Positions 8,169-48,229 of a DNA stretch of 64,000 nucleotides are shown piece after piece. Every line of letters begins with the position of its first letter. Within the stretch, counting starts at the first letter, position 1. Below the pieces are notes generated by a model, which ran no database searches, was not told the origin of the DNA, and saw only the letters and a program-made list of their open reading frames with translations. The stretch is taken from assembly GCA_016936505.1 (NCBI GenBank), contig JAFGXS010000011.1, positions 62,001 to 126,000 of the forward strand, in the 5' to 3' direction. A program made the position numbers and the translations under genes. This DNA is from Bacteroidales bacterium (GTDB taxonomy: Bacteria; Bacteroidota; Bacteroidia; Bacteroidales; F082).

Positions 8169-9353
8169 ATGAGTTGGTTCAAAAAAGAAAAAGAAAGAGA
8201 ATATTGGTTAATGGCTTCTGTTTGGCTGAACCTTTTTCTTTCAGCAATAAAACTTTTTTGGGGATGGCAGTTTCATTCCACAGTTGTTACTGCTGATGGT
8301 ATTCATAGCATTTCTGATGTTTTTGGAGCCTTTTTTGTTTTTATGGCCCTGCGTTTTGCCGGACACAAGTCCAAGCGATTTCCTTTTGGGCTCAACAAAC
8401 TGGAAGACTTAGCCGCTACGTTAGGTGGAATAGCCATTGTTTTTGCCGGTTACGAAATTATTCGGTCTGCCTTCTTCAGTTCAGGTATTCAGAGTCCTGA
8501 AAATATATGGGGAACCACTTTCTTTATCCTTGTTGTAATTATTATTGAGGCTGCTTTTTATTTTTATGAACGCAAAGCTTCAATCCGCTTAAAATCACCG
8601 GGAGTAAAGACTGATGCTGTCAACTGGTTGGGTGATATTGGTTCAAGCTTTATTGTTCTGGCCGGTATTATAGGATTCCATTTTTCAATCCCCTATGCCG
8701 AAAAAGCTGCTGTTGTTGTAATTGTTGTCATGATCTTTTATGGCGCTTACGGTATTCTTCGAGACGCATTGCTTTCTCTTTTGGAGGCTTCTGTTGATAA
8801 GGAAACCCTCAAGCAGGCACGCGACACCATAAAAAGATATCCCGAGGTTTCACATATTGAAAAACTGTTTATCCGCCGCTCCGGAAGTATTCTTATTGCT
8901 GATATTGTTTTGCAGGTAAAACAAAGAAGCATGCAAAGTGCACACCTTCAGGTTGATAAAATTGAAGGCCAGTTGCGTAAAGAGATTCCTAATCTGGCTC
9001 ATGTTACCATCCATTACGAACCGGAAAAAAAACCTTACTTTAAAATTGCTGTGCTTTTGGATGAAAACACAATAGATATAGCCACTTCGTTTAACAAAAC
9101 CGTTTGGATTAAAATGTTGCGCTATAACGAGAATGGCATACTTTTTCAGGAAGAGGTTTTGCAAAACCCGGTAGCACCTGAAGCCAAAGGAAAGGCCATT
9201 CGCTTGGCGGCCTGGCTCATTAAACAGGATGTGGAAAAAGTTATTTTTAATCCTGAAGATTTACGTGATGATATTAAAACACTATTCTCTGCGATGGGTA
9301 TTGAAATCAAAAAGAATATGCCGGAATATCCTTTAAACCAGAATCAGAAATGA
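8169..9353 (+). CDS. Cation diffusion facilitator family transporter
   Basis: VTADGIHSISDVFGAFFVF, KRFPFGLNKLEDLAAT and C-terminal cytoplasmic domain; ATG at 8169. Confidence 0.88.
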   Translation: MSWFKKEKEREYWLMASVWLNLFLSAIKLFWGWQFHSTVVTADGIHSISDVFGAFFVFMALRFAGHKSKRFPFGLNKLEDLAATLGGIAIVFAGYEIIRSAFFSSGIQSPENIWGTTFFILVVIIIEAAFYFYERKASIRLKSPGVKTDAVNWLGDIGSSFIVLAGIIGFHFSIPYAEKAAVVVIVVMIFYGAYGILRDALLSLLEASVDKETLKQARDTIKRYPEVSHIEKLFIRRSGSILIADIVLQVKQRSMQSAHLQVDKIEGQLRKEIPNLAHVTIHYEPEKKPYFKIAVLLDENTIDIATSFNKTVWIKMLRYNENGILFQEEVLQNPVAPEAKGKAIRLAAWLIKQDVEKVIFNPEDLRDDIKTLFSAMGIEIKKNMPEYPLNQNQK

Positions 9354-43809: not shown

Positions 43810-44622
43810 ATGATTCAAAACCTTGTTTTTATTTTATCAGCTGTATTCTTTATTGTTACACTGCTGATCATTTACTTTTTTGTGCTCAAACCAAGAAAAG
43901 CACACCCCGAATTATTGAAAAAACCTTTTCCTGAACCTTACAAAAGGATTTTGAAAAAAAGAGTTTTGTTTTACAGAAACCTTCCGGCAGAAAAGAAAAC
44001 AGAGTTCGAAAGGAGAATTCTATTATTCATGGCCGAAAAAGACATCCTTGGTGTTGAAACACAAATTGATGATACGGACAGGCTTTTGGTTGCAGCCAGT
44101 GCAGTAATTCCAATGTTTGGGTACGATTACTTCAGGTATCCAACGGTAAAGGAAGTTTTAATTTATCCCCATTCGTTTGATAAAGAGTTCCAAACAGACG
44201 ACATGGCCCAACAGAAAAATATTTTGGGTATGGTTGGAGACGGGTTTATGCGTGGAAGTGTTGTACTATCAAAACCTGATCTGGAAGCCGCATTTGACGG
44301 AACCCGGCACATACATAATGTTGGCATTCATGAATTCACTCATTTAATTGACGGAGCCGACGGGGCAACTGACGGAGTTCCGGAGATTCTGATTGAACAT
44401 TCCTTTGTAATGCCCTGGCTGAAGGAGATCAGGAGAGAAATGGAAAAAATAGTTAGCCATCATTCAGATATTAATCCTTATGGTTTAACCAATAATGCAG
44501 AGTTTTTAGCTGTGGTAAGCGAATACTTTTTTGACGACCCAGAAAAAATGAAAAGCCGTCATAAGGAACTATACGATATTATGGTTCAGATTTTCCACCA
44601 AAAACCAGACGATTATGTTTAG
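43810..44622 (+). CDS. MtfA-like zinc-dependent peptidase family protein
   Basis: VGIHEFTHLIDGADGATDGVPE HExxH-type motif; N-terminal TM. Confidence 0.85.
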   Translation: MIQNLVFILSAVFFIVTLLIIYFFVLKPRKAHPELLKKPFPEPYKRILKKRVLFYRNLPAEKKTEFERRILLFMAEKDILGVETQIDDTDRLLVAASAVIPMFGYDYFRYPTVKEVLIYPHSFDKEFQTDDMAQQKNILGMVGDGFMRGSVVLSKPDLEAAFDGTRHIHNVGIHEFTHLIDGADGATDGVPEILIEHSFVMPWLKEIRREMEKIVSHHSDINPYGLTNNAEFLAVVSEYFFDDPEKMKSRHKELYDIMVQIFHQKPDDYV

Positions 44623-44711
44623 TTAAAACAATACCCATCAACACTTTTTCTTATAAATTACAGGTGAGGACGTCATTGGTTGTTACAACACTCTATCATG
44701 AACAGGAATAG

Positions 44712-44743
44712 CCATTCACCGACAGGCTTCCGCCGTTCACCGA
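44712..44743 (+). promoter_or_regulatory. Candidate LytTR response-regulator operator: two direct repeats CC[A/G]TTCACCGA, 21-bp period
   Basis: CCATTCACCGA at 44712-44722 and CCGTTCACCGA at 44733-44743, 30 bp upstream of TATATTTG -7 box (44774-44781). Confidence 0.7.
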
Positions 44744-44773
44744 TTTTTGTTTCCCCACAAGAACATTGCAACT

Positions 44774-44781
44774 TATATTTG
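44774..44781 (+). promoter_or_regulatory. Bacteroidota -7 promoter box TATATTTG for the LiaF-like/micro-protein/LytS-LytTR cluster
   Basis: TAnnTTTG consensus, 29 nt upstream of ATG 44811. Confidence 0.55.
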
Positions 44782-44810
44782 CATTGAAATTCATTCCAAA
44801 GACTAAAAAA

Positions 44811-45530
44811 ATGGAAAACTATTCAAACAGACACAGTGCTTCAAAAGATGGAAAATTTATCATCGGAGGCATATTAATTATTATCGGATTCCTTGCTATG
44901 CTAGGAAACTTCGACTTTATCGACGGTAGTATTTCTCACTACATATTTAACTGGAAAAGCATATTAATTTTTATCGGACTTTACCTGTTGGCAGCACGTC
45001 CTCATAAAAAATCAGGATATATTCTTATAGGTATTGGTGTTATATTCTGGTTACCCGAAATTTTCGGGCAAAGCATTTACCTGCATCAGGTGTTCTGGCC
45101 ATTGGTACTGATTGGTGTTGGGTATCTTTTAATAAGAAGACACCTTAACTCTGACCAGCACCACTCGGGAGAACCTCATGAAAAAGGCGCCGACGGATTC
45201 CTGGAAGACGCCTCAATTTTTGGTGGCGGCATAAAAGTAATTCAGTCCAAAAACTTTAAAGGAGGAAATATCACAGCAATTTTTGGCGGATCAGAATTTG
45301 ATATGCGTGATGTAGAAATGGCAAATGATATAGCTATTATTGATGTATTTACCATCTTCGGGGGAACCAAAATCATTGTTCCTGAAAGCTGGTCTGTTCA
45401 ATCAGATGCTTTCGCAATGTTCGGTGGACTTTCAGACAAAAGAAGAATCAGCATTAAAGATCAGGCAGGAAATAAGTTAATTATTAAAGGACTGGTAATT
45501 TTCGGCGGAGTTGAGATCAAAAGCTTTTAA
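44811..45530 (+). CDS. LiaF-like / DUF5668-type transmembrane protein
   Basis: N-terminal TM repeats followed by beta-rich ...ASIFGGGIKVIQSKNFKGGNITAIFGGSEFDMRDVEMANDIAIIDVFTIFGGTKIIVPESW. Confidence 0.8.
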   Translation: MENYSNRHSASKDGKFIIGGILIIIGFLAMLGNFDFIDGSISHYIFNWKSILIFIGLYLLAARPHKKSGYILIGIGVIFWLPEIFGQSIYLHQVFWPLVLIGVGYLLIRRHLNSDQHHSGEPHEKGADGFLEDASIFGGGIKVIQSKNFKGGNITAIFGGSEFDMRDVEMANDIAIIDVFTIFGGTKIIVPESWSVQSDAFAMFGGLSDKRRISIKDQAGNKLIIKGLVIFGGVEIKSF

Positions 45531-45565
45531 ATCAAACAAGCATAATCACTTATAATACTAATGTC

Positions 45566-45721
45566 ATGAAAGCAAAATCATTCACATCCATAAAATTTCA
45601 GCAAGGTTTATTTTCGAACCAAAGAAATCAAACCAGAAGAAACAATCCAAACAACCTGATGACCGGTTCTCCGGAGTTATCAGCAAACTGGATGAACCGC
45701 AGTAACTTCTTTGACAGTTAA
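45566..45721 (+). CDS. Tandem micro-protein family member 1 (51 aa): MKAKSFTSIKFQQGLFSNQRNQTRRNNPNNLMTGSPELSANWMNRSNFFDS
   Basis: Aligns ungapped over 51 aa with members 2 and 3. Confidence 0.68.
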   Translation: MKAKSFTSIKFQQGLFSNQRNQTRRNNPNNLMTGSPELSANWMNRSNFFDS

Positions 45722-45800
45722 ATCAGACTTCGTTGCTTAATTTCTGTAACTAAAAAAGACCAAAACAGTCATATTAGTAAAACACAAAAAATTTAAAGTC

Positions 45801-45956
45801 ATGAAAACAGATGCAAAGAGTTCCTTAAGATTTTACCCGGGTTATTTCAATGCCCCCAGGAATTACCAAAGAAAAGGCAAAAATCGCCTGGCCATGACAG
45901 CCTGCCATCCAAACCTCAGGAGCTGGTTAAATCCACAAAATCTGTTCGATCTTTAA
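45801..45956 (+). CDS. Tandem micro-protein family member 2 (51 aa): MKTDAKSSLRFYPGYFNAPRNYQRKGKNRLAMTACHPNLRSWLNPQNLFDL
   Basis: Same length and pattern F-x-P-G-Y-[FY], [ML]TACHP, SWLN, LF as member 3. Confidence 0.78.
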   Translation: MKTDAKSSLRFYPGYFNAPRNYQRKGKNRLAMTACHPNLRSWLNPQNLFDL

Positions 45957-46013
45957 TTGTTACGGATTCATTAAATACTAAAACAGGCTTTAAAAACGAC
46001 TAAATTCAGAATC

Positions 46014-46169
46014 ATGAGAACAAATCAGACATATGAATTCAGATTCTTTCCGGGTTACTATTCAAAACCCGGAAATTATCAGAACAACGAGAATAAACGT
46101 CGTGTTCTTACAGCCTGTCATCCTTCCGTCTGGAGCTGGCTTAACAGCAAAACTCTATTTACTCATTAA
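46014..46169 (+). CDS. Tandem micro-protein family member 3 (51 aa): MRTNQTYEFRFFPGYYSKPGNYQNNENKRRVLTACHPSVWSWLNSKTLFTH
   Basis: As member 2. Confidence 0.78.
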   Translation: MRTNQTYEFRFFPGYYSKPGNYQNNENKRRVLTACHPSVWSWLNSKTLFTH

Positions 46170-46193
46170 CAATAATCACTAAAAAAACTTATC

Positions 46194-46343
46194 ATGAAAT
46201 CACTGGCCAATTCATTCAAATTCTACACCGGATACTTTCGGTCTCCGAGAGTAGAACAAAGAAAAAACCACTCAAGACATTCATTAACCAGTTGCTGCTG
46301 TTCCAAATGGCGCTGGGGCAGCGAATCTTTTTTTAACTTGTAA
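46194..46343 (+). CDS. Tandem micro-protein family member 4 (49 aa, CCC variant): MKSLANSFKFYTGYFRSPRVEQRKNHSRHSLTSCCCSKWRWGSESFFNL
   Basis: Shares SFKFYTGYF, LTSC, W and FF motifs with the other members. Confidence 0.73.
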   Translation: MKSLANSFKFYTGYFRSPRVEQRKNHSRHSLTSCCCSKWRWGSESFFNL

Positions 46344-46408
46344 AATTTGCATCATGAACAATTTTACAGAACATTGTTACCCGTCTAACCTGTGAAAACC
46401 CTTTTTAA

Positions 46409-47464
46409 ATGACTACGCTGAACCCCGTATCGCAAAACAAGAATTATCTGATTACCTACCCTATGGTTTGGACAGTTATTGTAGCACTTCACATGCTGGT
46501 TCTGAATTTGTTTTACGATGTCAACAGCCTGGTCAGCTTTACCGATGCACTGGTATTCAATGTCCTTTTTATGATCATTGGATACAGTCTTTGGTTTGTG
46601 ATCCGGTTTAATCTTAAAGAAAAACCTTCCATTTTTGATATCGTTTTCAATCATTTACTGGTAGCTCTTGTCGTCATCGCCATTTGGCTAGCTGCCGGAT
46701 ATTTTATTCTTTCGTACCTCTTCACCAACAATAACGATTATCTTTCGTTCCTGCGCATTACACTTCCCTGGCGTGCCGTCACAGGTTTCTTTTACTATCT
46801 GATTTTTGTTTTGTTTTACTACCTGCTCATTTATAATGACGATCTACAGGAAAAGTTAAGAATGGAAAACGAATTGCAAAAACTGGTTACTGAGGCCGAG
46901 CTTAATGCCTTGAAATCACAAATTAACCCTCACTTTTTATTCAATAGTCTGAACTCTATCAGCTCGCTTACCATCAGCAATCCCGATAAGGCACAGGAAA
47001 TGGTAATCAAACTTTCCGACTTTCTCAGGTATTCATTAAGCCATGATAAGAATGAACAAACCAGTTTAAAAGAAGAATTTGAGAACCTGTTGCGCTATCT
47101 CGAAATTGAAAAGGTACGTTTTGGCAAGCGCCTGAACTTTATTCACAACATACCTGAACAGTGTTTTGAGGTTCATATTCCCAATATGATTTTACAGCCG
47201 CTTATTGAAAACTCTATTAAACACGGGGTATACAACAGTTCGGAGGAAACCGAAGTTGAAATAAAATGTACCGATAATAATAACTACCTTGTAATAGAAA
47301 TTACAAACGATTATGATCCAGATACCAAAAAACCCAAAGGAGAAGGTGTAGGACTTAAAAACATAAAAAAGCGGCTACAGCTGATATACGGACGAAGTGA
47401 TTTGTTGGAAACAATTGCCGAAAAAATGGTATTTAAAGCTATATTAACCATACCAAAACAGTAA
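46409..47464 (+). CDS. LytS/YehU-type sensor histidine kinase (His_kinase PF06580-like), 4 TM
   Basis: EAELNALKSQINPHFLFNSLNSISSLT; IPNMILQPLIENSIKHGV; GEGVGLKNIKKRLQLIYG. Confidence 0.93.
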   Translation: MTTLNPVSQNKNYLITYPMVWTVIVALHMLVLNLFYDVNSLVSFTDALVFNVLFMIIGYSLWFVIRFNLKEKPSIFDIVFNHLLVALVVIAIWLAAGYFILSYLFTNNNDYLSFLRITLPWRAVTGFFYYLIFVLFYYLLIYNDDLQEKLRMENELQKLVTEAELNALKSQINPHFLFNSLNSISSLTISNPDKAQEMVIKLSDFLRYSLSHDKNEQTSLKEEFENLLRYLEIEKVRFGKRLNFIHNIPEQCFEVHIPNMILQPLIENSIKHGVYNSSEETEVEIKCTDNNNYLVIEITNDYDPDTKKPKGEGVGLKNIKKRLQLIYGRSDLLETIAEKMVFKAILTIPKQ

Positions 47465-47467
47465 GTT

Positions 47468-48229
47468 ATGGAACAAACATTGCGCATTATCATCATTGAA
47501 GACGAACAACCTGCCAGAGAACTGGTTAAAGCCTATCTGAAATCTTATGAGAACCTGGAGCTTATAGCTGAATGTGAAAATGGTTTTGAAGGGATTAAAG
47601 CCATTCAGGAACATCAGCCCGATTTGGTTTTTCTGGATATTCAAATGCCCAAACTCACCGGATTTGAAATGCTGGAACTACTCGACGATGTTCCTGAAAT
47701 CATTTTCACTACAGCATACGACCAATTTGCAATAAAAGCTTTCGAACTTAATGCTATTGATTATCTGATGAAACCTTTTTCCAGAGATCGTTTCCATCAG
47801 GCACTGAATAAAGCATTTGAACGCATGCGAAACAAAACTGCTGAAGAGTCGAAACCGGCACTGGAAAAACTGAAAGAAAGCATCCGTGAGAAATCGGGTC
47901 CGCTGGAACGCATTTTCGTTAAAACAGGCAGCCATATCGACATGATTCCGGTTCCTGATATTTTTTACATTCAGGCGCAGGACGACTACGTTGAATTACA
48001 CAGCCCTAATGGTAGATTTCTAAAAAAAGAAACCATGGGCAGCATTGAAAAACAATTGCCTGAAGGACAGTTTCTCAGGGTACACCGCTCATCCATCATC
48101 AACACCAAGCAAATCGAAAAACTTGAGAAATACGGAAAAGAAAGTTATGTCGTTATTTTAAAAGACGGAACCCGCGTAATCGTAAGCAAAAGCCGGGTGA
48201 AGACTTTGAAAGAACAGTTGGGAATATAA
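47468..48229 (+). CDS. LytTR-family response regulator (receiver + LytTR DNA-binding domain)
   Basis: IIEDEQPARELVKAYL, DLVFLDIQMPKLTG, IFVKTGSHIDMIPVPDIFYIQAQDDYVELH, FLRVHRSSIINTKQIEKLEKYGKESYVVILKDGTRVIVSKSR. Confidence 0.95.
   Translation: MEQTLRIIIIEDEQPARELVKAYLKSYENLELIAECENGFEGIKAIQEHQPDLVFLDIQMPKLTGFEMLELLDDVPEIIFTTAYDQFAIKAFELNAIDYLMKPFSRDRFHQALNKAFERMRNKTAEESKPALEKLKESIREKSGPLERIFVKTGSHIDMIPVPDIFYIQAQDDYVELHSPNGRFLKKETMGSIEKQLPEGQFLRVHRSSIINTKQIEKLEKYGKESYVVILKDGTRVIVSKSRVKTLKEQLGI

Follow-up and report, generated by a model that had tools for sequence, protein, structure and literature searches.

What are the four small open reading frames (ORFs) that stand in tandem, with a LiaF-like gene on one side and a LytS/LytTR gene pair on the other, in the genome of a Bacteroidales bacterium, and what might they do there? 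In the window, i.e., the whole 64,000-nucleotide stretch of DNA analysed here, a gene for a LiaF-like membrane protein (44811..45530; Pfam LiaF-TM PF22570, 2e-14, and LiaF-like_C PF09922, 4.8e-7) is followed by micro-protein genes 1 (45566..45721; 51 aa, type A-like, charge +5), 2 (45801..45956; 51 aa, +7), 3 (46014..46169; 51 aa, +5) and 4 (46194..46343; 49 aa, type B with a CCC-x2-W motif, +7), then by a LytS-type sensor histidine kinase (46409..47464; PF06580, 5e-30) and a LytTR response regulator, the presumed operator binder (47468..48229; PF04397, 1.5e-26, and PF00072, 4e-24), all on the + strand. A sequence-only reading of this DNA had listed four ORFs, the first three exactly 51 codons long and the last coding for 49 aa, with F11, G14, N21, T33, W42, N44 and F49 identical in members 1-3. 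All four were found, each with an ATG start, the lengths and residues are as listed, and Pfam confirms the LiaF-like, LytS and LytTR neighbours it had named. Six columns (M1, F11, G14, T33, W42, and F49) are invariant across the four peptides, and the pairwise local scores (z = 5.2 to 24.9 against 1000 shuffles) place every pair above the best of its shuffles; the four are thus homologous beyond chance. A terminator-like hairpin with a T tract lies at 46296-46323, inside the 3-prime end of gene 4, and could reduce LytSR expression relative to the peptides; hits of this type are no more frequent than in shuffled sequence.

Judged by their substitution pattern, the four ORFs are genuine proteins under purifying selection. 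The sister genome G007 has a syntenic array in the order LiaF-four peptides-LytS-LytTR, with orthologues of peptides 1-4 that are 55, 86, 65, and 82% identical to those of the window. Pooled dN/dS against that array is 0.12 (bootstrap 0-0.20; silent sites nearly saturated at a dS of about 1.4) in frame vs 1.1 and 1.6 in the shifted frames of the DNA of peptides 2-4, which argues that the proteins are real. Selection on the peptides had been proposed from the letters alone, with dN/dS across homologues as its check, and the value found against the sister species is far from 1. The ORFs could instead be non-coding or spurious, whether as an RNA element or as duplicated DNA in decay that is open by chance, as would suit their lack of support from any curated protein family, but the contrast between frames already contradicts this, the ORFs are intact in all 15 complete copies from the two species, with a common start context (typically A-rich, then GTCATG), and the region has no Rfam match, so that no known RNA element accounts for it. 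We consider a spurious origin extremely unlikely.

The family, with members of 44-51 residues, is dispersed over several chromosomal loci, often as tandem copies, and comprises at least seven genes in the window genome and eight in G007. Additional copies elsewhere in the same genome were invisible to the sequence-only reading: contig C16 carries a peptide pair (at 8326 and 8501) between hipBA and the his leader/hisG, and C22 has one peptide gene at the contig edge. Besides the syntenic array, G007 has a pair at 52 kb of C53, another at the start of C24 and, where that contig ends, a gene cut off after seven codons. Type A peptides (44-45 aa) read ...VKFQSGxFSxSRKSRR...PVxxxxWMN..., and type B peptides carry a ...SCCCSxW... 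motif. No credible homologue was obtained in the other 171 genomes of the taxonomic family, nor by profile searches in samples of 393 genomes of the order and 396 of the phylum (sets that overlap in part and amount to more than 700 other Bacteroidota genomes); the one-contig congener G005 has zero copies, and tblastn of phage and plasmid records and one viral-contig scan returned nothing. That no named family was recognised at first agrees with the libraries, as the peptides have no credible match in Pfam, NCBIfam, PHROGs, Rfam, or PDB sequences. Pfam metallothionein 11 (7e-4) and ET module (3e-3) each matched one member only, most likely through cysteine-rich composition. Also rejected were a weak partial profile match inside a 1031-aa frame (order and phylum searches), three partial matches with E-values of 0.002-0.01 in the search of the family (173 genomes), and a weak match in the window genome itself, at C79, within an elongation-factor-like GTPase gene. 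To judge by the libraries and genomes searched, this is a micro-protein family with no described relative that occurs in two sister species only.

The copies appear mosaic, and type A genes vary independently in their heads and tails about the RKSRR block. Within the window genome, the second C16 gene and the C22 gene are 95% identical over the first 39 nt past this block and 65% before it, while the C22 gene and the first C24 gene of G007 are identical before the block and unlike just past it. The copies may recombine. The starts of C22 and C24 (L013:1-87 and L104:1-87) have exactly 87 nt in common, as have the ends of C22 and C45 (L013:10594-10680 and L105:1-87), and these overlaps fall inside peptide genes or their leaders. 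Given that the title of the public record states k87, both carrier genomes probably derive from one metagenome assembly, whose graph was broken at shared 87-mers; they are thus not independent samples. The shared 87-nt words are likely real, and they suggest that there are array copies beyond those assembled. The independent variation of heads and tails also bears on the earlier proposal of RiPP-like precursors, in which a conserved N-terminal leader reaching to the SRKSRR block would precede a variable core of 20 residues. Against it, the identity on the 5-prime side is confounded by the contig-edge k-mers, the tail is conserved too (PVxxxxWMN), NCBIfam and Pfam gave no precursor match, and the arrays share no maturation enzyme, all of which makes RiPP precursors very improbable.

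LytS comes after LiaF in all 12 genomes of the genus, and in eight of them the gap between the two holds a 72-aa TM2-domain gene (Pfam 9.7e-20 for the one gap gene scanned), whereas it is merely short in G001 and G010 and is filled by the peptide array in the window genome and G007. Genome searches found the TM2 gene nowhere in these two carriers, and it was present in both congeners tested alongside them. The expectation that relatives would have the array next to LytS/LytTR is therefore not borne out in ten congeners, which have the TM2 gene or nothing in the gap. Of the supposed link to LytS/LytTR, adjacency is kept in one sister species only; what holds is a shared predicted LytTR operator (see below). 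Since the array occupies the slot of a gene that both carriers lack, the peptides might be feedback modulators that bind LytS or LiaF, set the gain of the system and replace TM2. Yet such feedback needs neither their multiplicity nor their spread to loci where no kinase adjoins the dispersed copies, and the peptides have no transmembrane segment, so we hold this to be unlikely.

Upstream of LiaF lies a predicted LytTR operator, the direct repeat CACCGAC-N14-TCACCGATTT in a 21-bp register (44717..44746, +), which is kept at this position in all 12 genus genomes, and 27 nt past it a -7 box, TATATTTG (44774..44781, +), that follows the Bacteroidota consensus TAnnTTTG (PMC7366714). Read upstream of LiaF across the genus, the operator consensus is ACCGAY...RCCGAW in the 21-bp register, then TAnnTTTG. 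Known LytTR sites are mostly 9 bp - 12 bp - 9 bp, e.g., ACCACTTAT-12-ACCGCTTAT, and several of their repeats start with ACC (PMC6193735); the repeat described here matches them in register and in its ACC-type half-sites. The -7 box at 44774 is the only TAnnTTTG on the + strand within 44600-46500, which fits a single transcript that spans LiaF, the peptides and LytSR. The pattern YACCGAY-N14-YRCCGAWTT has 27 sites in the 12 genus genomes, and the reversed control pattern has none in any of the 12. A promoter is linked to 23 of the 27 sites, i.e., those of 12 LiaF operons, five PspC operons, one OEP efflux gene, and five peptide arrays. The five array-linked sites are confined to the two carrier genomes, in which every promoter-linked site other than those of LiaF, PspC and the efflux gene leads into a peptide array: two precede complete pairs (C16 and G007 C53) and one the gene truncated after seven codons (end of C24), these three running straight into the peptide ATG, and two (the C22 end and G007 C45) are cut by the contig edge within a C24-type leader, their downstream genes being assigned from the identical leader. 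The C45 site lies beside hipBA, as does the one at C16. Thus a direct repeat in 21-bp register by a promoter, as expected of a LytTR regulon, is found at 44717-44746 and likewise before every dispersed array whose upstream side is assembled. Membership of the peptide arrays in the predicted LytTR regulon is well supported by these sites.

Sites occur in 13 of the 16 genera of the family, although the ones in the large genus g14, where the control pattern is not clean, look like chance. Family-wide, 68 of the 90 distinct sites are followed by the -7 box after exactly 27 nt (0.05 expected). In other genera the operator lies upstream of PspC plus LiaF-like, small LiaF-like, and SppA genes. Its second conserved target across genera is a PspC-domain gene with a LiaF-like gene behind it (own genus, L041, L042, L045, L050, and L054; other genera, L079, L094, L097, L099, L100, L114, L116, L126, L136, L137, and L139). 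In genus g10 (L081-L083) the operator precedes an SppA-type (Peptidase_S49) gene, without the canonical TAnnTTTG at 27 nt. Operator and -7 box also precede secreted-looking acidic proteins in other genera (L112, L120, L124, L129, and L138) with repeated E-E-x-Y-[IV]-D-D-I-P-F-[ND]-T motifs, apparently a further small effector of the regulon. In the window genome, from L107:3240 onward, the operator stands before an outer-membrane efflux (OEP) operon that, by reading, continues with TetR-like, membrane-fusion, and RND-type proteins. Taken as predictions, operator and spacing outline a LytSR envelope-stress regulon (LiaF, PspC, and secreted repeat proteins) in most genera of this Bacteroidales family, of which we found no description in the literature searched.

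As for the peptides themselves, they are cationic (+5 to +8) and aromatic-rich, with a GRAVY of -0.19 to -1.38 and a best 19-residue window of at most 0.54 (13 peptides computed); by hydropathy they have no transmembrane segment such as a type I toxin would have. The suggestion that they are secreted fared poorly, inspection of the sequences showing neither a signal peptide nor a double-glycine leader. AlphaFold gave one short helix and no confident fold (pLDDT 57, 8-row alignment). The neighbours of the arrays vary (HipBA/his operon, beta-lactamase-like protein, TPR/AraC regulator, arylsulfotransferase), and operator plus promoter are the sole feature that the arrays have in common, which favours stand-alone effectors of envelope stress acting in trans over RiPPs or clustered bacteriocins.

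Peptides of this kind, small (44-51 aa), cationic, aromatic-rich, without a leader by inspection, tandem and multi-locus, could be antimicrobial or signalling molecules like leaderless bacteriocins, LytTR-induced as in streptococci; LytTR-family direct repeats govern bacteriocin genes of S. mutans (PMC6193735), and the copies are mosaic and fast-diverging. A CAAX-type (Rce1-like) membrane protease beside one array points the same way; it lies with an arylsulfotransferase-like protein between two peptide arrays of G007 (L104:828-3577). But no transporter or immunity gene recurs by the arrays: translation and selected Pfam scans of the DNA beside the arrays of the window, C16, C22, and G007 C24 and C53 revealed no apparent ABC transporter or immunity gene. 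Leaderless bacteriocins have a compact helical (saposin-like) fold; the model, of low confidence, is nearly helix-free, with one short helix, and to that extent seems unlike them. We therefore see bacteriocin-like peptides as a rather doubtful reading. Also improbable, in our estimate, is a stress-induced, multi-locus, mosaic peptide arsenal, antimicrobial or serving as a signal between cells, under LytTR control like that of streptococcal bacteriocins, whose modules would be exchanged between co-resident sister species.

The explanation that we favour, with somewhat better than even confidence, is that the peptides are lineage-specific, LytSR-induced, membrane-proximal envelope-stress micro-proteins that were recruited into an old LytS/LytTR regulon. 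LytS, restrained or tuned by LiaF, would sense a disturbance of the envelope; phospho-LytTR, which we infer to be both operator binder and activator, would bind the ACCGAY direct repeat beside the promoter; and LiaF-peptides-LytSR, the PspC/LiaF-like operon, and the dispersed arrays would be induced together. Being cationic, rich in aromatic residues, and probably flexible, with no visible export signal, the peptides most likely act inside the cell, and we infer that they do so at the stressed membrane, on its inner side, or on membrane-proximal partners such as LiaF, PspC or LytS. For such binding the AlphaFold model at pLDDT 57 gives no structural support, and the rapid divergence of paralogues and the mosaic genes would also fit an exported, diversifying peptide. 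An orphan micro-protein family is here linked with a particular regulator and a defined promoter code, which makes its function testable, and it offers an example of young small proteins joining an old stress circuit.

Among known systems, aureocin A70 and garvicin KS are multi-peptide leaderless bacteriocins, made of tandem paralogous small cationic peptides without a leader. The peptides described here resemble them in these traits, but differ in that no transporter/immunity cluster was seen and the low-confidence model has hardly any helix, in their dispersed loci and in their Gram-negative bearer. With HdrRM/BrsRM of S. mutans (PMC6193735) the locus has in common an autoregulated operon of a membrane partner and a LytTR regulator, 9-bp direct repeats, spaced by 12 bp, immediately before the promoter, and small-peptide genes in the regulon; here, in contrast, a LytS kinase and a LiaF-like protein take part, the promoter is of the Bacteroidota type, and the peptides come without bacteriocin leaders or dedicated export genes. 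As in LiaFSR/Psp systems (PMC11237479, PMC9239133), a LiaF-type protein, PspC, a kinase, and a regulator are under common control, the LiaF-LytSR and PspC plus LiaF-like operons sharing the predicted operator. Unlike in LiaFSR, the kinase is of the LytS type (His_kinase, PF06580) and the regulator a LytTR protein, not LiaS/LiaR. We know of no micro-protein counterpart in the Lia or Psp systems. In types of kinase and regulator the pair resembles BtsS/BtsR of E. coli, the window LytTR protein matching the BtsR model at 4.4e-55, yet below the model cut-off. The BtsR site, too, contains ACC half-sites set about 21 bp from each other. BtsSR, however, responds to pyruvate (PMC5552118), whereas the target genes found here are those of envelope stress.
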